Position numbers and translations under genes: made by a program. A stretch of 33,521 bases of DNA from Actinomycetota bacterium (GTDB lineage Bacteria > Actinomycetota > Actinomycetes > S36-B12 > GCA-2699445): contig JAPOIY010000028.1 of assembly GCA_029978705.1 (NCBI GenBank), positions 1 through 33,521 of the forward strand. Direction: 5' to 3'. This document shows, piece after piece, positions 19,381-32,952 of this stretch. Numbering within the stretch: the stretch's first letter is position 1; every line of letters starts with the position of its first letter. A model generated the notes under the pieces. It saw only the letters and a list, made by a program, of their open reading frames with translations. It did not search any database and had not been told where the DNA came from.

Positions 19381-19492
19381 CTCAGGCACAGGACCCTTTC
19401 ACATACTGAAAGCCAGCGCAGGGGGCCACACTGCAGGTAACGGGAGACCGGTGGAGATGCAGCACCACCGATCGACTCCGGAGGTGGTCCCC

Positions 19493-19960
19493 GTGAAGAA
19501 AGAACTCTCAGCCATAGTGTCCGCGGGCATGTTGTTCGCCGTCACCGCCGTCGGCGCGTCGGTCCTGGATCTCAGCGGATCCGACACCGCACCCGGCACG
19601 GGCAAGACGGAAGCGGCATGCGCCGGCCCCCTGATCGTCACCAATCCGGTGACCATCGGTGGCCACAACAACAACCGCATCGAGCAGGTCACGGTCACCG
19701 GCGACATGAGCCAGTGCGCCGGCGAGACCATGTTCGTCGAGGTGGACCTGTTCAACGACACGTCCCACGCGTGGGCCGTCAAGCAGTTGAGCGGAGCGAG
19801 CAGCCTGACGTTCACCTTCGACGCCACCACTGGGGACTTCTACGACACGTCCCCGACTCCCAGTAACGGCACGCTGGTGCCCGCCGGGTCACGGGTCGGT
19901 CCCTACAAGGACAAGGAATTCGGCTTGGTGACGATCACCATTGCCTCCACCTGGCAGTGA
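19493..19960 (+). CDS. Small secreted protein of unknown family, putative substrate of the adjacent signal peptidase
   Basis: A 155-residue exported protein that I do not recognise. The GTG start is chosen for the GGAGG 8 nt upstream; an in-frame ATG at 19451 would add 14 polar residues before the signal. It has a Lys-rich start (VKKE), a long hydrophobic stretch (about 5-27), then a Ser/Thr/Gly linker and a beta-rich domain with TNPVTIGGHNNNRIEQVTVTG and LTFTFDATTGDFYDTS. Two Cys, in EAACAG and MSQCAG, could form one disulfide outside the cell. No wall anchor. Its stop lies 20 bp before a SipW-type signal peptidase gene, as with TasA/SipW pairs, though no TasA similarity is evident. Confidence 0.7.
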   Translation: MKKELSAIVSAGMLFAVTAVGASVLDLSGSDTAPGTGKTEAACAGPLIVTNPVTIGGHNNNRIEQVTVTGDMSQCAGETMFVEVDLFNDTSHAWAVKQLSGASSLTFTFDATTGDFYDTSPTPSNGTLVPAGSRVGPYKDKEFGLVTITIASTWQ

Positions 19961-19980
19961 CACCCCCGAGGGGGACGATC

Positions 19981-20976
19981 ATGGGAACGCCAGCCCCCAC
20001 CGGGCGCCGCCGGACGATATCCGCGCTGGCGCTCGGTGTGGCGATCCTCGGGCTCCTCTGGGCCTTCGTGGGCCCGACCCAGGTGGGCGGTCCCATGACC
20101 TACGCCATCGTGCACGGCCACTCGATGGAGCCGCTTCTCCAGGACGGCGATCTCGTCGTCGCCGCCCGGCGCGGGTCGTACGGCGTCGGCGACACCGTGC
20201 TGTACGACAAGTACGGCGGCCTCGTGATCCACCAACTCACCGGCGGCGACGCCACCGCCGGTTGGGTGAGCCGCGGATTGAACAATTCCTGGGACGACGC
20301 GTGGCGGGTCTTCCCGGCAGACGTCCGCGGCGAGTACGTCCTGCACTCGACGCTGCTCGGCGCCACCTTGCGCTGGCTGGCCCGGCACCCGGCCGCTCCC
20401 GCCCTGGCGGCTGTCGTCGTCTTCCTGCTGTTGTCCCTTCCCCTGCCCCGCCGGCGCCACCTCGACCCGCAGGTCCAGCGACTGACCCGTCAGTCGCGCT
20501 GCGAACGCTGCGGGTCGGTGGTCATGATCTGCGCCCTGGTGACTGTCGGGGTGTGTATGGCCGCCGTGGCCCTGCTGCTCTCCCGCGGTCAGACGGGCGG
20601 GACGAGTTGGTACGTGGCCGTCGCCTCTCTCGTCGGATCATGCGCCGTCGCGGCGTTCGCGGGCCGCGCGGGCGCCAGCGGAGAGGCGGAGCCACAACGC
20701 ACCCTGGCCGCTCTCGACGGGCAGGTGCGGCGACTGCCGTGCGACGTACCGATCGAGGGGGTTCCGCTGGGAGTCAGTTCCGTCGCCGACCTGCGGGAGC
20801 AGAGTGTGCACTGGCGCAGCCCGGTGTTCCACCAACAGTTCCCGGACCGCGACACGTTCACCCTCGTGACCCCCGCGGGGAACCCCACGTGGGCGGTGCG
20901 GCGCAACGGTTCGGTGCCGAGCACGCGACACGCGGCCGCGGCACCGACGGACGGGGGCAGCACCTCCGCAAACTGA
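19981..20976 (+). CDS. SipW/ER-type signal peptidase I with extended membrane tail
   Basis: A 331-residue membrane peptidase. It has an N-terminal helix (about 13-32), then HGHSMEPLLQDGDLVV with catalytic Ser48, and LVIHQLTGG with His84 where bacterial LepB has Lys. A Ser/His dyad is the mark of the ER/SipW type. SRGLNNSWDDA (98-108) corresponds to the conserved Asn/Asp region. A membrane helix at 138-155 follows. The chain then continues, unlike most SipW proteins, with CERC (174-177), two more helices (about 180-201 and 208-227) and a tail of about 100 residues. ATG at 19981 is used because GAGGGGG is 6 nt upstream; a GTG at 19957 overlapping the previous stop is less likely. Confidence 0.82.
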   Translation: MGTPAPTGRRRTISALALGVAILGLLWAFVGPTQVGGPMTYAIVHGHSMEPLLQDGDLVVAARRGSYGVGDTVLYDKYGGLVIHQLTGGDATAGWVSRGLNNSWDDAWRVFPADVRGEYVLHSTLLGATLRWLARHPAAPALAAVVVFLLLSLPLPRRRHLDPQVQRLTRQSRCERCGSVVMICALVTVGVCMAAVALLLSRGQTGGTSWYVAVASLVGSCAVAAFAGRAGASGEAEPQRTLAALDGQVRRLPCDVPIEGVPLGVSSVADLREQSVHWRSPVFHQQFPDRDTFTLVTPAGNPTWAVRRNGSVPSTRHAAAAPTDGGSTSAN

Positions 20977-20981
20977 TCACC

Positions 20982-22157
20982 GTGACCGGGACCCCGTGGC
21001 GCGAGGCGATGCGTACCGCCGCCGACCTGCCGCCCGCCCCAGCCGTCCGGGTGGGGCTCGAATCCGCGATCGGGGCGCGACTGGCGCAGCCCGTGGTCGC
21101 CCAGAGCGACCTGCCGCCGGTGGCGAGCGCCGCGGGGGCCGGATACGCGGTGCGCGGCATCGGACCGTGGCGGATCCGCCCCACCGGTACGACTCCCGAA
21201 GAAGGCGAAGCGGTCGCCGTGCGCGGGGGAGACCCGCTGCCCCCCGACACCCTTGCTGTCGTGGGCTCCCGGGAGGCTGTCGTGGAGTCCGACATCGTCC
21301 TGGTGGGCGATCCCGCTACCGGGCGCCCGGGCACGCGGCCGGGCATGGCGACGCCGGGGGAAGGAATCACGACCCGGGCCACCCAGGCCACCGCCGGTGA
21401 GGTTCTCGGCAAAGCCGGGACGACCGTGACCGCCGGAACGGTCGCACTGGCTGCCGCGGCGGGGATGGACGAACTCGTCGTCATCCCGCCGGCTACGGTC
21501 GCGCCGCTCGTCATCACCTCCGACTTCCTGGACTCCGGACCGCCCCGGCGGGGCCGCAACCGCGACATCGTCGCCGCGCTGTTGCCCGCCTGGATCATGG
21601 GCAGCGGGGCCCGCTGTCTGCCCGGCGCCACTGCGGCGCCCACCCACGCGGCAGCGGTCGCGGACCGGGTGGCCGCCTCGGATGCCGACCTGACGGTGGT
21701 CACAGCGGGGGCCGACCCCGGTCCCACCATCGCCTCCGCCCTGCGCCGCGCGGGCGGCACGATCCTGCTGGAGCGGGTGGCCGCCCACCCGGCCGACGCC
21801 GTGCTGCTCGCCCAGCTGGGCGCGGGTCGGCGCGTCCTGGTCCTCCCCCGCGACCCGGCGGCGGCGGTCGTGAACCTGGCCCTGCTCCTTTCGCCGATGA
21901 TCGCGTCCCTCTCGGGCCACCCCACCCCACCCGTACGTTCGGTCATGCTGCGGGCCGACGCCCCCGGTTCCGGTGAGCGGGCCGTACCGGTCCAGGTGGA
22001 GAGCGGCGAACTGGCCGACCTCGCCGTCGCCCAGCCGTGGGTGGGCCCCTTCGGCCTCACTCCCGTCGGCACATGCAACGGCATCGCGTTCCTGGGCGCC
22101 GGGCGCGGCCGGCGCGGCGACACCGTTCCGGTGATCTCGCTGCCGGGACGCAGTTAG
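20982..22157 (+). CDS. Degenerate MoeA-like protein, probably not a molybdenum insertase
   Basis: A 391-residue protein with the MoeA order of blocks. TPWREAM opens it. LESAIGARLAQPVVAQSDLPP leads into SAAGAGYAV (49-57), where MoeA has SxMDGYA. The middle has GITTRATQATAGEVLGKAGTTV and LAAAAGMDELVV, and the MPT-binding-like region is TVVTAGADPGPT (238-249). The key motifs are broken: the Asp of DGYA is Ala53, the GGVSVGxxD loop is replaced, and the LPGNP motif reads LPRDP. The chain ends in a short MoeA domain-IV-like barrel. The GTG start, 5 nt after the peptidase stop, keeps the N-terminal MoeA block. No molybdenum cofactor gene is nearby. A structural or binding role in the secretion module is inferred. 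Confidence 0.7.
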   Translation: MTGTPWREAMRTAADLPPAPAVRVGLESAIGARLAQPVVAQSDLPPVASAAGAGYAVRGIGPWRIRPTGTTPEEGEAVAVRGGDPLPPDTLAVVGSREAVVESDIVLVGDPATGRPGTRPGMATPGEGITTRATQATAGEVLGKAGTTVTAGTVALAAAAGMDELVVIPPATVAPLVITSDFLDSGPPRRGRNRDIVAALLPAWIMGSGARCLPGATAAPTHAAAVADRVAASDADLTVVTAGADPGPTIASALRRAGGTILLERVAAHPADAVLLAQLGAGRRVLVLPRDPAAAVVNLALLLSPMIASLSGHPTPPVRSVMLRADAPGSGERAVPVQVESGELADLAVAQPWVGPFGLTPVGTCNGIAFLGAGRGRRGDTVPVISLPGRS

Positions 22158-28602: not shown

Positions 28603-29100
28603 GTGGGTTCCCTGACCGCCCGGCTGACCGCCGGTGCTGCTCTCGCGGCACTGGCCGGCACCACGCTGGCAGTCGTGCCCGGAGTGGCGTCCGCCGCCAC
28701 CAAGGTCACCACCAAGGACCGCCAGCAGGCCATCGAACTGCGCGACCGCGTCGTGTCCGTCGCCCGGCATCAGGCCGGCGACCGCTACGTTCTCGGCGCC
28801 ACCGGACCGGGAGCCTTCGACTGCTCCGGCCTGGTCGTCTACTCGTACAAGAAGGCCACCGGCATCACGCTGCCGCGGACCTCGTACCTGCAGCGGGACC
28901 ACCTCGAGCGGGTGTCGCGCAAGAACCGCCGCCCCGGCGACATCGTCGTCGTGCACGGCGGCGGTCACGTCGGCATCTACATCGGACACAACCGCATCGT
29001 GCATGCCTCCACCCCGGCGACCGGCGTCAAGTACACCGATCTGTCCGACGGGTATGGGCATGCCATCAACGGCTACCGCCGCGTCATCATCCCCCGCTGA
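28603..29100 (+). CDS. NlpC/P60 endopeptidase, copy 1
   Basis: A secreted peptidoglycan hydrolase of 165 residues from a GTG with AAGGAG 5 nt upstream. The signal peptide has a hydrophobic core LTAGAALAALAGTTLAVVPG and cleavage near ASA-AT (about 31). After a short helical stretch comes one NlpC/P60 domain: FDCSGLV with Cys74, GDIVVVHGGGHVGIYIG with His122, and RIVHAS with His134 as the third residue. The family cuts the D-Glu-to-diamino-acid bond in stem peptides. There is no coiled coil or wall-binding domain, so it is unusually compact compared with RipA-type enzymes. Copy 2 follows after 55 bp on the same strand. Confidence 0.93.
   Translation: MGSLTARLTAGAALAALAGTTLAVVPGVASAATKVTTKDRQQAIELRDRVVSVARHQAGDRYVLGATGPGAFDCSGLVVYSYKKATGITLPRTSYLQRDHLERVSRKNRRPGDIVVVHGGGHVGIYIGHNRIVHASTPATGVKYTDLSDGYGHAINGYRRVIIPR
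28777..28864 (+). repeat. Near-identical 88-bp core, copy 1
   Basis: Matches 29351-29438 at 87 of 88 positions; the single difference is G at 28845 against C at 29419, a silent change. It covers the active-site Cys block. Sequence outside it diverges quickly. Confidence 0.9.
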
Positions 29101-29155
29101 CCCTCAGTCCCGTCCCCCGCGCGACCGCGCAACCCGAACCTCAAGGAGAATCACC

Positions 29156-29677
29156 ATGTCCAGCCTCACCACGTCCCGCATCCGCCGCATGGCCGCCGCC
29201 GTCGCGGTCACCGGCGTCGCCGCCACCGCCCTGACACTGGGCCCCGTGGCCACCGGGGAGGCAGCCGCCTCCAGCAAGATCCGCACCCGGGACGCCGCCC
29301 AGGCCCAGCAGCTGCGGGAACGCATTGCCACCATCGCCAAGGCGCAGAAGGGCGACCGCTACGTTCTCGGCGCCACCGGACCGGGAGCCTTCGACTGCTC
29401 CGGCCTGGTCGTCTACTCCTACAAGAAGGCCACCGGCAAGACCCTGCCGCGCACCTCCTACGCCCAGGCCTCGGCCATCGAGCACGTCCAGCCCAAACAC
29501 CGCAAGGTGGGCGACATCGTGTTCTTCCGGGGCAACGGGCATGTCGGGGTCTACCTCGGTCAGGGCCGCATCGCCCAGGCCCTGAACCCTGGCACCGGCG
29601 TCGTAGTCCAGAGCACGTCCGAGGGCTGGAACCGTCGCATGATCTACGGCTACGGTCGCGTCATCATCACCAAGTGA
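29156..29677 (+). CDS. NlpC/P60 endopeptidase, copy 2
   Basis: A 173-residue secreted hydrolase parallel to copy 1. AAGGAG lies 7-8 nt before the ATG. The signal peptide has RIRRM as its basic part and a core AAAVAVTGVAATALTLGP, with cleavage near residue 38. The NlpC/P60 domain has Cys81 in FDCSGLV and His129 in GNGHVGVYLG, but the third catalytic position is Gln141 (RIAQAL), where copy 1 has His. Both residues occur in the family, so both enzymes are probably active but may differ in pH range or rate. The tandem pair arose by duplication. Confidence 0.93.
   Translation: MSSLTTSRIRRMAAAVAVTGVAATALTLGPVATGEAAASSKIRTRDAAQAQQLRERIATIAKAQKGDRYVLGATGPGAFDCSGLVVYSYKKATGKTLPRTSYAQASAIEHVQPKHRKVGDIVFFRGNGHVGVYLGQGRIAQALNPGTGVVVQSTSEGWNRRMIYGYGRVIITK
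29351..29438 (+). repeat. Near-identical 88-bp core, copy 2
   Basis: Partner of 28777-28864. The identity includes third codon positions, while the rest of the two genes differs widely. This suggests recent duplication with selection elsewhere, or gene conversion limited to this block. Confidence 0.9.
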
Positions 29678-31078: not shown

Positions 31079-31774
31079 ATGCCCAGCGACGGCCCTGATC
31101 AGCCCGGCTTCGTCGATCTGGGTTTCGCGCGGGTGGATACCGACCGGCTGGAGCGCACCGGTGACCCGGAGGGCGTCTACGGCGCTGGCAAGACGACCGA
31201 GCAGATCGTCGCGATCCTGACCCACCTGCACCGTTCGCACCCGGACCGGGCCGTGCTGGCCACGCGGGTCACCGACCCGGCGGCGGTCGTAGCCGGGCTG
31301 GGGGACCTCCCCGCCGTCCCGGACCTCACGGCGAACGCCGTGGTGGTGGGCCCGGTGCCGACACCCGTCGGGCTGGTGGGAATCGTCGCCGCCGGGACCT
31401 CGGACGGTCCCGTCGCCGCCGAGGCCGAACTGACGGTGGCCGTCCATGGGGCCGGGACCACCCGGATCACCGACGTCGGGGTGGCGGGCCTGCACCGGGT
31501 GATGGCCACCCGCGAGCAGCTGGACGGCTGCGACTGCATCGTGGTCGTGGCGGGCATGGAGGGGGCGCTGCCCAGCGTCGTCGGCGGTCTGACCGGGACC
31601 CCCGTCGTCGCGGTGCCCACGAGTGTGGGCTACGGCGCCTCGTTCGGCGGGGTGGCGGCGCTGCTGGGCATGCTCAACTCGTGCGCTCCCGGTGTGGTCG
31701 TGGTGAACATCGACAACGGCTACGGGGCGGGCGTGCACGCTGCCCGGGTGGCACGGCGGCGGTTCCCCTCATGA
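31079..31774 (+). CDS. larB: LarB, nickel-pincer cofactor biosynthesis carboxylase
   Basis: LarB carboxylates the pyridinium ring of nicotinic acid adenine dinucleotide and releases AMP, the first step to the nickel-pincer nucleotide used by lactate racemase and related LarA enzymes. The 231-residue protein has GVYGAGKTTEQI (32-43), a middle domain related to PurE-type AIR carboxylases with VVVAGMEGALPSVVGGL, and the signature VPTSVGYGASFGGVAALLGMLNSCAPGVVVVNIDNGYGA. The stop overlaps the larC start. The likely transcript is leaderless. Confidence 0.94.
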   Translation: MPSDGPDQPGFVDLGFARVDTDRLERTGDPEGVYGAGKTTEQIVAILTHLHRSHPDRAVLATRVTDPAAVVAGLGDLPAVPDLTANAVVVGPVPTPVGLVGIVAAGTSDGPVAAEAELTVAVHGAGTTRITDVGVAGLHRVMATREQLDGCDCIVVVAGMEGALPSVVGGLTGTPVVAVPTSVGYGASFGGVAALLGMLNSCAPGVVVVNIDNGYGAGVHAARVARRRFPS

Positions 31775-32952
31775 CGTCGCTGCATATCGATGCCTCGATC
31801 GGGTGCGCGGGCGACATGTTGCTGGCTGCCTTGGTGGATGCGGGTGCCGACCGGGCGCGGGTCAGCGCAGCCGTGGCCGCGGTACTGCCCGGGGCGACGG
31901 TGGGCTTCGCCGGGGTGCAGCGTGCCGGTCTGCGGGCGCTCCAGGCGACGGTCTCCGCACCCGACACATCCCCTTTCCACACCTGGCGGGAGCTACGGCC
32001 GGCCCTGACGGCGTCGCTGCCCCCCGAGATCGCCGCGGGCGCCGTGGCCGTGTTCGCGGGCCTGGCACAGGCTGAGGGAGAGGTCCACGGGATCGTTCCC
32101 GACGAGGTGCACTTCCATGAGGTGGGCGCCTGGGACTCCATCTGCGACGTGGTCGGGGGGGTCGCGGCGCTGCTCTCGCTGCATCCCGAGACCATCACGG
32201 CCGGCCCGGTGGCTACCGGGTCGGGTACCGTCACCGGCGCGCACGGGACCTTGCCGGTGCCCGTGCCCGCGGTCGTCGCGCTGTTGGCCGCTGCGCGAGC
32301 GCCCGTGCTTCCCGGGCCGGCTTCCTTCGAGGCATGCACGCCCACGGGAGCCGCTCTCCTCGGCCACTTCGTGGACCACTGGCAGGCGGGGCCCACGGGG
32401 GTGATCGAAGGCAGCGGTGTCGGGGCCGGCACCGCCGACCCGGCCGGGTTCGCCAACACCGTCCGGGTCTTCGTCACGGCAGACGCCCCGGTGCCGGGTT
32501 CGGCCGTGATGCTCGAGACCAATGTGGACGACATCGACCCCCGGCTGTGGCCGGGCATCCAACGGGAGTTGCTGGCGGCGGGAGCGTCGGACGCGTGGCT
32601 CACACCCATCCAGATGAAGAAGGGGCGCCCGGCGACCACCCTGTCCGTCCTGTGCCGACCCGACCAGCAGTCGGCGGTGGCGCGCCTGGTGTTCCGGCTC
32701 ACCCCAGCCATCGGCCTGCGTGTCCTCCCCGTGGGGAAACTGGCGGCGGAGCGCACGATGGCCACCGTTGCCGTTGCGGGGTGCCCGATCGCGGTCAAGA
32801 TCGCCTCCTGGGAGGGCGCCATCGTCAATGTGCAGCCGGAGTGGGAGGATGTGGCCACGGCTGCGCGGGAGTTGGGGGAGCCGGAGAAGACGATCCTCGC
32901 CCGCGCTCAGGCCGCCGCCGCCGAGTTGTGGCCCAACCCACGGAATCCGTAG
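31771..32952 (+). CDS. larC: LarC, nickel-pincer cofactor cyclometallase
   Basis: LarC inserts nickel into the pincer ligand in a CTP-dependent reaction. The 393-residue chain begins LHIDASIGCAGDMLLAAL and has VHFHEVGAWDSICDVVG (113-129), GPVATGSGTV, ACTPTGAALL, and the second half MLETNVDDIDPRLWP and IQMKKGRPATTLSVLC, followed by a C-terminal domain with VNVQPEWEDV. In Lactiplantibacillus plantarum larC is split and joined by frameshifting; here it is one frame. The ATG overlaps the larB stop (ATGA). larE and larA are not in the window, so the cofactor user is elsewhere. A terminator lies 67 bp downstream. Confidence 0.95.
   Translation: MTSLHIDASIGCAGDMLLAALVDAGADRARVSAAVAAVLPGATVGFAGVQRAGLRALQATVSAPDTSPFHTWRELRPALTASLPPEIAAGAVAVFAGLAQAEGEVHGIVPDEVHFHEVGAWDSICDVVGGVAALLSLHPETITAGPVATGSGTVTGAHGTLPVPVPAVVALLAAARAPVLPGPASFEACTPTGAALLGHFVDHWQAGPTGVIEGSGVGAGTADPAGFANTVRVFVTADAPVPGSAVMLETNVDDIDPRLWPGIQRELLAAGASDAWLTPIQMKKGRPATTLSVLCRPDQQSAVARLVFRLTPAIGLRVLPVGKLAAERTMATVAVAGCPIAVKIASWEGAIVNVQPEWEDVATAARELGEPEKTILARAQAAAAELWPNPRNP

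Follow-up and report, generated by a model that had tools for sequence, protein, structure and literature searches.

A probable MoeA-fold pseudoenzyme, possibly repurposed as a docking scaffold, in an actinobacterial genome

The window, the whole stretch of DNA analysed here (33,521 nt), contains a gene whose product resembles MoeA but has its signature motifs replaced, raising the question of whether the protein still acts in molybdenum cofactor (Moco) synthesis, is decaying, or has been put to another use. We lean towards reading it as a MoeA-fold pseudoenzyme repurposed as a docking scaffold. Judging from its motifs, the protein is very probably not an Mo-insertase, and we regard the docking role itself, suggested by sequence and by analogy, as evenly balanced.

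Homology of the protein and its catalytic motifs

The gene starts with GTG at 20982, a start position equivalent in four relatives from its family in the alignment, and its stop ends at 22157; the frame is intact and GC3 is 0.88. A Pfam search of the 391-aa protein returned MoeA_N (2.4e-16, 60 bits, above cut-off) and no further domain. With phmmer against the PDB, the protein matched Cnx1E (4e-9) and E. coli MoeA (about 2e-7), and all of its PDB matches were MoeA, Cnx1E, gephyrin or Glp. A five-sequence profile of the protein and its four nearest relatives gave stronger matches to Cnx1E (4e-25), gephyrin (7e-23), E. coli MoeA (1e-16) and C. glutamicum Glp (5e-12), the best of which, to Cnx1E and the gephyrin E domain, spanned about 300-325 residues; the block order and domains I-III of E. 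coli MoeA were recovered with this profile. These matches bear out the MoeA homology proposed in the initial annotation, and on their evidence the gene encodes a homologue of the Moco-synthesis enzyme that carries out molybdenum insertion.

Other searches yielded less. NCBIfam models of MoeA type matched the protein weakly at most, Glp leading with 59.8 bits where the cut-off is 475. The Pfam domain MoCF_biosynth scored 94 bits in the MoeA on contig C40 of the same genome and 70-74 bits in enzyme-like orthologues, fell to 24-26 bits, under the cut-off of 26.6, in three of the other members of the window family, and was not matched in the window protein or the fourth of these members. The homologue scan of genome contigs returned three Pseudomonas MoeA and nothing more, and scans of viral contigs returned no further homologue; an AlphaFold model with the window protein and these three distant sequences as input reached a pLDDT of 33, too low to be interpreted.

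Alignment to E. coli MoeA showed replacements along the whole set of catalytic motifs (Table 1). The three changes reported initially, in DGYA, in the GGVSVGxxD loop and in LPGNP, were real, with SGGVSVGEADYT replaced by TAGADPGPTI, and further replacements were found at T100, R137, E188 and KPGKPF. The statement that all motifs were replaced is slightly too strong: the structural residues G60, A62, P105, G199, D203, P298 and P301 (E. coli numbering) are retained. The protein failed the catalytic-residue test (D59, T100, E188, D259, LPGNP), and the active site was lost in all five members of its family; D59, T100, E188, D259 and N300 are jointly lost, and these positions vary among the relatives.

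Table 1. Features of the MoeA-like gene, with positions in the window
Feature	Coordinates	Strand	Basis
Predicted MoeA-fold pseudoenzyme, 391 aa	20982..22157	+	Pfam MoeA_N 2.4e-16; PDB profile matches; clade of five 100/100
DGYA site, reads AGYA (MDGYA to GAGYA); D59 lost	21138..21149	+	Alignment to E. coli MoeA
MTGAPVP site, reads RGGDPLP; T100 lost	21222..21242	+	Alignment to E. coli MoeA
IRRRGED site, reads ITTRATQ	21366..21386	+	Alignment to E. coli MoeA
STGDEL site, reads VITSDF; D187 and E188 lost	21510..21527	+	Alignment to E. coli MoeA
Family-specific basic stretch RRGRNRD (relatives SGPPRRG[KR][DN]R)	21546..21566	+	Alignment; R189, R190, G191, R194 invariant
GGVSVGEAD loop site, reads TAGADPGPT; D259 lost; largest conservation loss in the protein	21702..21728	+	
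KPGKPF site, reads HPADAV (IKPGKPF to AHPADAV)	21786..21803	+	
LPGNP site, reads LPRDP	21843..21857	+	
Domain-IV hairpin PVQVESGELADLA; most conservation gained; overlaps the FtsZ-binding loop of C. glutamicum Glp	21987..22025	+	

Locus, paralogues and persistence without the Moco pathway

Orthologues of the gene lie in a row made up of a carboxyltransferase, (a MobA-like gene), MoeA, a K+ channel with TrkA_N, a quinone oxidoreductase, BPA, serS, a HAD hydrolase and pheA, which is conserved throughout the order and also in further families of the class (f22 and f24 among them), some members lacking genes. The row-linked MoeA members form one clade (95/95, recovered in 96% of bootstrap trees), within which the window family is supported at 100/100. 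By synteny and tree, the serS-linked paralogues at L045, L053 and L150 (MobA/K+ channel type) are direct orthologues of the window gene; they keep DG[YFW]A, TGA, GDEL and LPGNP, which the window family has lost. Outside the eroded lineages (f1, f3, part of f5, and G020), most row-linked members appear enzyme-like. Tree and gene order thus place the window gene in an old actinobacterial MoeA paralogue that is elsewhere enzyme-like. Where MoeA has GGVSVGxxD, the enzyme-like members have GSTAxGPxD or GGTAxGPxD, and since this loop is already altered in them, the ancestor of the window gene is, on the alignment, not a canonical MoeA. In the tree, the f5 clade with eroded motifs (100/100) falls beside enzyme-like f5 genes and not beside the window family (90/96); by this topology, active-site erosion in the serS-linked paralogue is an event that took place at least twice.

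Around the window gene itself the row is altered. In the window's family the row lacks the quinone oxidoreductase, and the window also lacks the K+ channel, which adjoins the gene in three of the four other family members. The window holds no Moco gene over its 33,521 nt, as noted initially; this absence does not extend to several orthologues elsewhere, which adjoin a MobA-like gene. A small exported-looking protein and then an archaeal-type signal peptidase I (19451-20976; TIGR02228 40.3 bits, under the cut-off of 51.85) occupy the upstream side, ending 5 bases before the MoeA-like gene. A functional link to this signal peptidase was rejected, no match to it being seen beside the orthologues. 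The K+ channel as an obligate, gephyrin-like partner was likewise rejected as a general rule: the window's genome has no orthologue, only weak matches, and in G024 the channel is present although the gene is absent; a literature search for a link between MoeA and K+ channels gave nothing relevant. At L103 of G024, the carboxyltransferase, K+ channel, quinone reductase, BPA and serS are kept, but no MoeA gene separates the carboxyltransferase from the K+ channel, whose matches lie about 100 bases apart. For G001, G006 and G007, loss of the gene was not established, their serS contigs stopping before the gene's place. Elsewhere in the window, LarB-like (AIRC domain) and LarC-like (Ni_insertion, 377 bits) genes at 31079-32952 suggest synthesis of a nickel-pincer cofactor, and a tandem pair of NlpC/P60 genes lies at 28603-29677, where several relatives show one match.

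The window's assembly (G000) carries three MoeA_N genes, on C40, C46 (the window gene) and C75, and all three types co-occur in G000, G002 and G003. The C40 gene is the second, motif-complete moeA that the initial annotation had suggested looking for in the genome. It lies inside a moaA/moaC/moaE/narG cluster, adjoining moaC, a mogA-moaE fusion, moaA, a MobA-like gene, a molybdate transporter and a narG-like gene, and its motifs are complete except for GGTAAGPVD in place of GGVSVGEAD; the window's own genome has the Moco pathway. The C75 gene occupies a Glp locus, with 5-FTHF cyclo-ligase, the MoeA-like gene, rimJ and a membrane protein in glpR's place, and its motifs are eroded. Glp-locus copies without catalytic motifs were seen in the window's family at L059:10047-11210 (the C75 gene), L096, L107 and L108; moaC and mogA did not adjoin them, no long FtsZ-binding hairpin of the C. 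glutamicum type was seen, and the score of L059 for the Glp model, 239 bits, lay below its cut-off of 475. G024 (G024:C23) and G036 (L114:5225-6448) have one MoeA_N gene each, beside moaC; that of G036 is of the canonical/Glp-locus type with complete catalytic motifs, and in such genomes one protein may serve Moco synthesis plus any Glp-type role. L092:3565-4776 (G053) passes the NCBIfam Glp cut-off (506 against 475) with a complete MoeA active site and adjoins moaC, which is at odds with the idea that Glp has lost its enzymatic role in general.

The window gene is also retained in genomes that lack the pathway. G004 is the closest relative in the careful tree (100/97) and carries an orthologue in a genome that is 98% complete; no moaA, moaC or moaE was found there, all three were absent from two further genomes of its genus, and G004 has no C40-type MoeA. 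In a second case, G026 (f5), the orthologue is the single MoeA_N gene, and again no moaA, moaC or moaE was found. Molydop_binding was strong in G000 and G003 (77-84 bits, one match being the narG-like gene of G000) and weak in G004 and G026 (34.0 and 23.8 bits), where the matches are perhaps NuoG. In incomplete assemblies, one missing contig could hide several linked Moco genes in G004 or G026; for G004 this is unlikely because three genomes of one genus lack them. In G004 and G026, the gene persists without the Moco pathway (INDEPENDENCE from Moco).

Conservation along the protein and comparison with Glp and gephyrin

We compared pairwise identity within groups at 27 signature columns with that in the remaining protein; for the window family the whole conservation argument rests on five sequences. 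In these five, signature identity was 0.48 vs 0.48 for the rest (z 0.1), whereas C40-type MoeA of the same family reached 0.97 vs 0.51 (z 6.1), canonical or Glp-locus genes of other families 0.93 vs 0.51, and enzyme-like serS-linked genes of f7 0.99 vs 0.72. About half of the 27 sites matched the signature in the window clade, as against 91-93% in functional-looking actinobacterial MoeA genes, which sets the clade apart from E. coli MoeA. The four other family members are 43-51% identical to the window protein, with frames intact in all five. The initial proposal of recruitment rather than decay gains support from these results: frames are intact, non-catalytic sites are conserved as in true MoeA (48% vs 51%), the signature sites have lost their special constraint, the gene is kept in G004 and G026 without Moco genes, and a second, motif-complete moeA is present in the genome.

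A scan of 12-residue windows over the whole protein, scaled to the group mean, set the window family, with its five sequences, against four reference groups and was not limited to any region in advance. The greatest losses fell at residues 237-244 (the GGVSVG loop), 261-265, 287-290 (LPGNP) and 127-130, and the greatest gains at residues 333-344, the domain-IV hairpin. Residues E340, G342, E343, L344, D346 and L347 of the hairpin are invariant in the window family, and identity over residues 337-348 was 0.72 compared to 0.26-0.44 in five other groups. R189, R190, G191, R194, W204 and R211 are family-specific invariant residues. In these alignments the scan shows a shift of conservation, away from the GGVSVG loop and towards the domain-IV hairpin.

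Gephyrin and Glp are known cases of a repurposed MoeA, Glp being the actinobacterial paralogue so described, according to the sections of PMC10522489 and PMC11733289 used here. In those of PMC10522489, Glp of C. glutamicum binds FtsZ through a domain-IV hairpin/loop, gephyrin binds its receptor through domain IV, and the two other MoeA paralogues of C. glutamicum are cytoplasmic; the same sections of both papers do not describe erosion of another, non-Glp MoeA paralogue. Glp (Cgl0883, PDB 8bve/8bvf, NCBIfam NF045515) and the window protein are both actinobacterial, with a MoeA fold and an eroded active site, and the conserved hairpin of the window family sits at the place of the FtsZ-binding loop of Glp (M361-L370 in the alignment). 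However, the hairpin is shorter than that loop and of other sequence, the window gene has no adjoining glpR or rimJ, and the genome's own Glp-locus gene is on C75; identity of the window gene with Glp was ruled out by score (59.8 vs 475 bits for NF045515), locus and tree, the last two marking it as another paralogue. Gephyrin is the classic case of the fold serving as a scaffold, but gephyrin and Cnx1E keep Mo-insertase activity and a fusion to a G domain; the window protein has no such fusion and very probably no such activity.

A docking scaffold and the alternatives

The scaffold reading supposes the following course. The gene would descend from a second actinobacterial MoeA-type paralogue (MobA-like/K+ channel/serS-linked), which was probably an Mo-insertase originally; in the presence of another MoeA, constraint on its catalytic cleft (PMC6954367) would have been lifted in the ancestor of the window's family. 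The remaining protein would then have stayed under selection for a job independent of Moco, its frame and body conserved and the gene kept without Moco genes. The MoeA-type body, presumably still dimeric, may present the domain-IV hairpin (E-x-G-E-L-A/I-D-L) to a partner protein; the conserved hairpin could alternatively serve folding or dimer stability. Less likely than not, but worth stating, is that the MoeA fold was here converted once more and independently, starting from a non-Glp paralogue, into a non-catalytic docking protein with its binding site at the domain-IV hairpin used by Glp, in a lineage whose Glp-locus copy is also eroded. MoeA is one of the few enzymes known to have been turned into a scaffold more than once (gephyrin, Glp), and a further lineage from another paralogue, if true, would test how and where the fold gains a binding site, with intermediate stages seen in neighbouring families and persistence after loss of the Moco pathway. 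An annotation as "molybdopterin molybdotransferase" in Actinomycetes need not mean an enzyme.

MoeA works as a dimer in which the active site lies between the two monomers (PMC9458074), and G000, G002 and G003 each carry all three MoeA-type genes, so that the window protein might be a regulatory pseudo-subunit that pairs either with the active MoeA or with the eroded copy at the Glp locus, tuning Moco synthesis or that copy's function. We judge this unlikely, since G004 has neither a C40-type MoeA nor the Moco pathway and G026 has only one MoeA_N gene. There is a similarly small chance that the fold has been taken over for a different small-molecule or enzymatic role, with a different ligand in the altered cleft and the arginines of RRG[KR][DN]R involved. 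The six family-specific invariant residues do lie near the old binding site in sequence; the loops lining that site, however, are the least conserved in the protein, unlike what a new active site would lead one to expect.

Slow decay of a redundant MoeA copy heading for loss, with no present function, appears quite improbable. Several lineages at the locus are eroded, and G024 lost the gene with its neighbours kept, which speaks for decay, but frames have stayed intact in five genomes despite their divergence, non-catalytic sites are conserved to the level of true MoeA, and some regions show raised conservation. Retention of Mo-insertase activity by a divergent active site is extremely unlikely. 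Paralogues that have GGTAxGPxD for GGVSVGxxD are found in Moco clusters and are presumably functional, which implies some tolerance of change in this loop; against this, the five catalytic residues from D59 to N300 are lost together and vary among the relatives, and the gene is retained without moaA, moaC or moaE.
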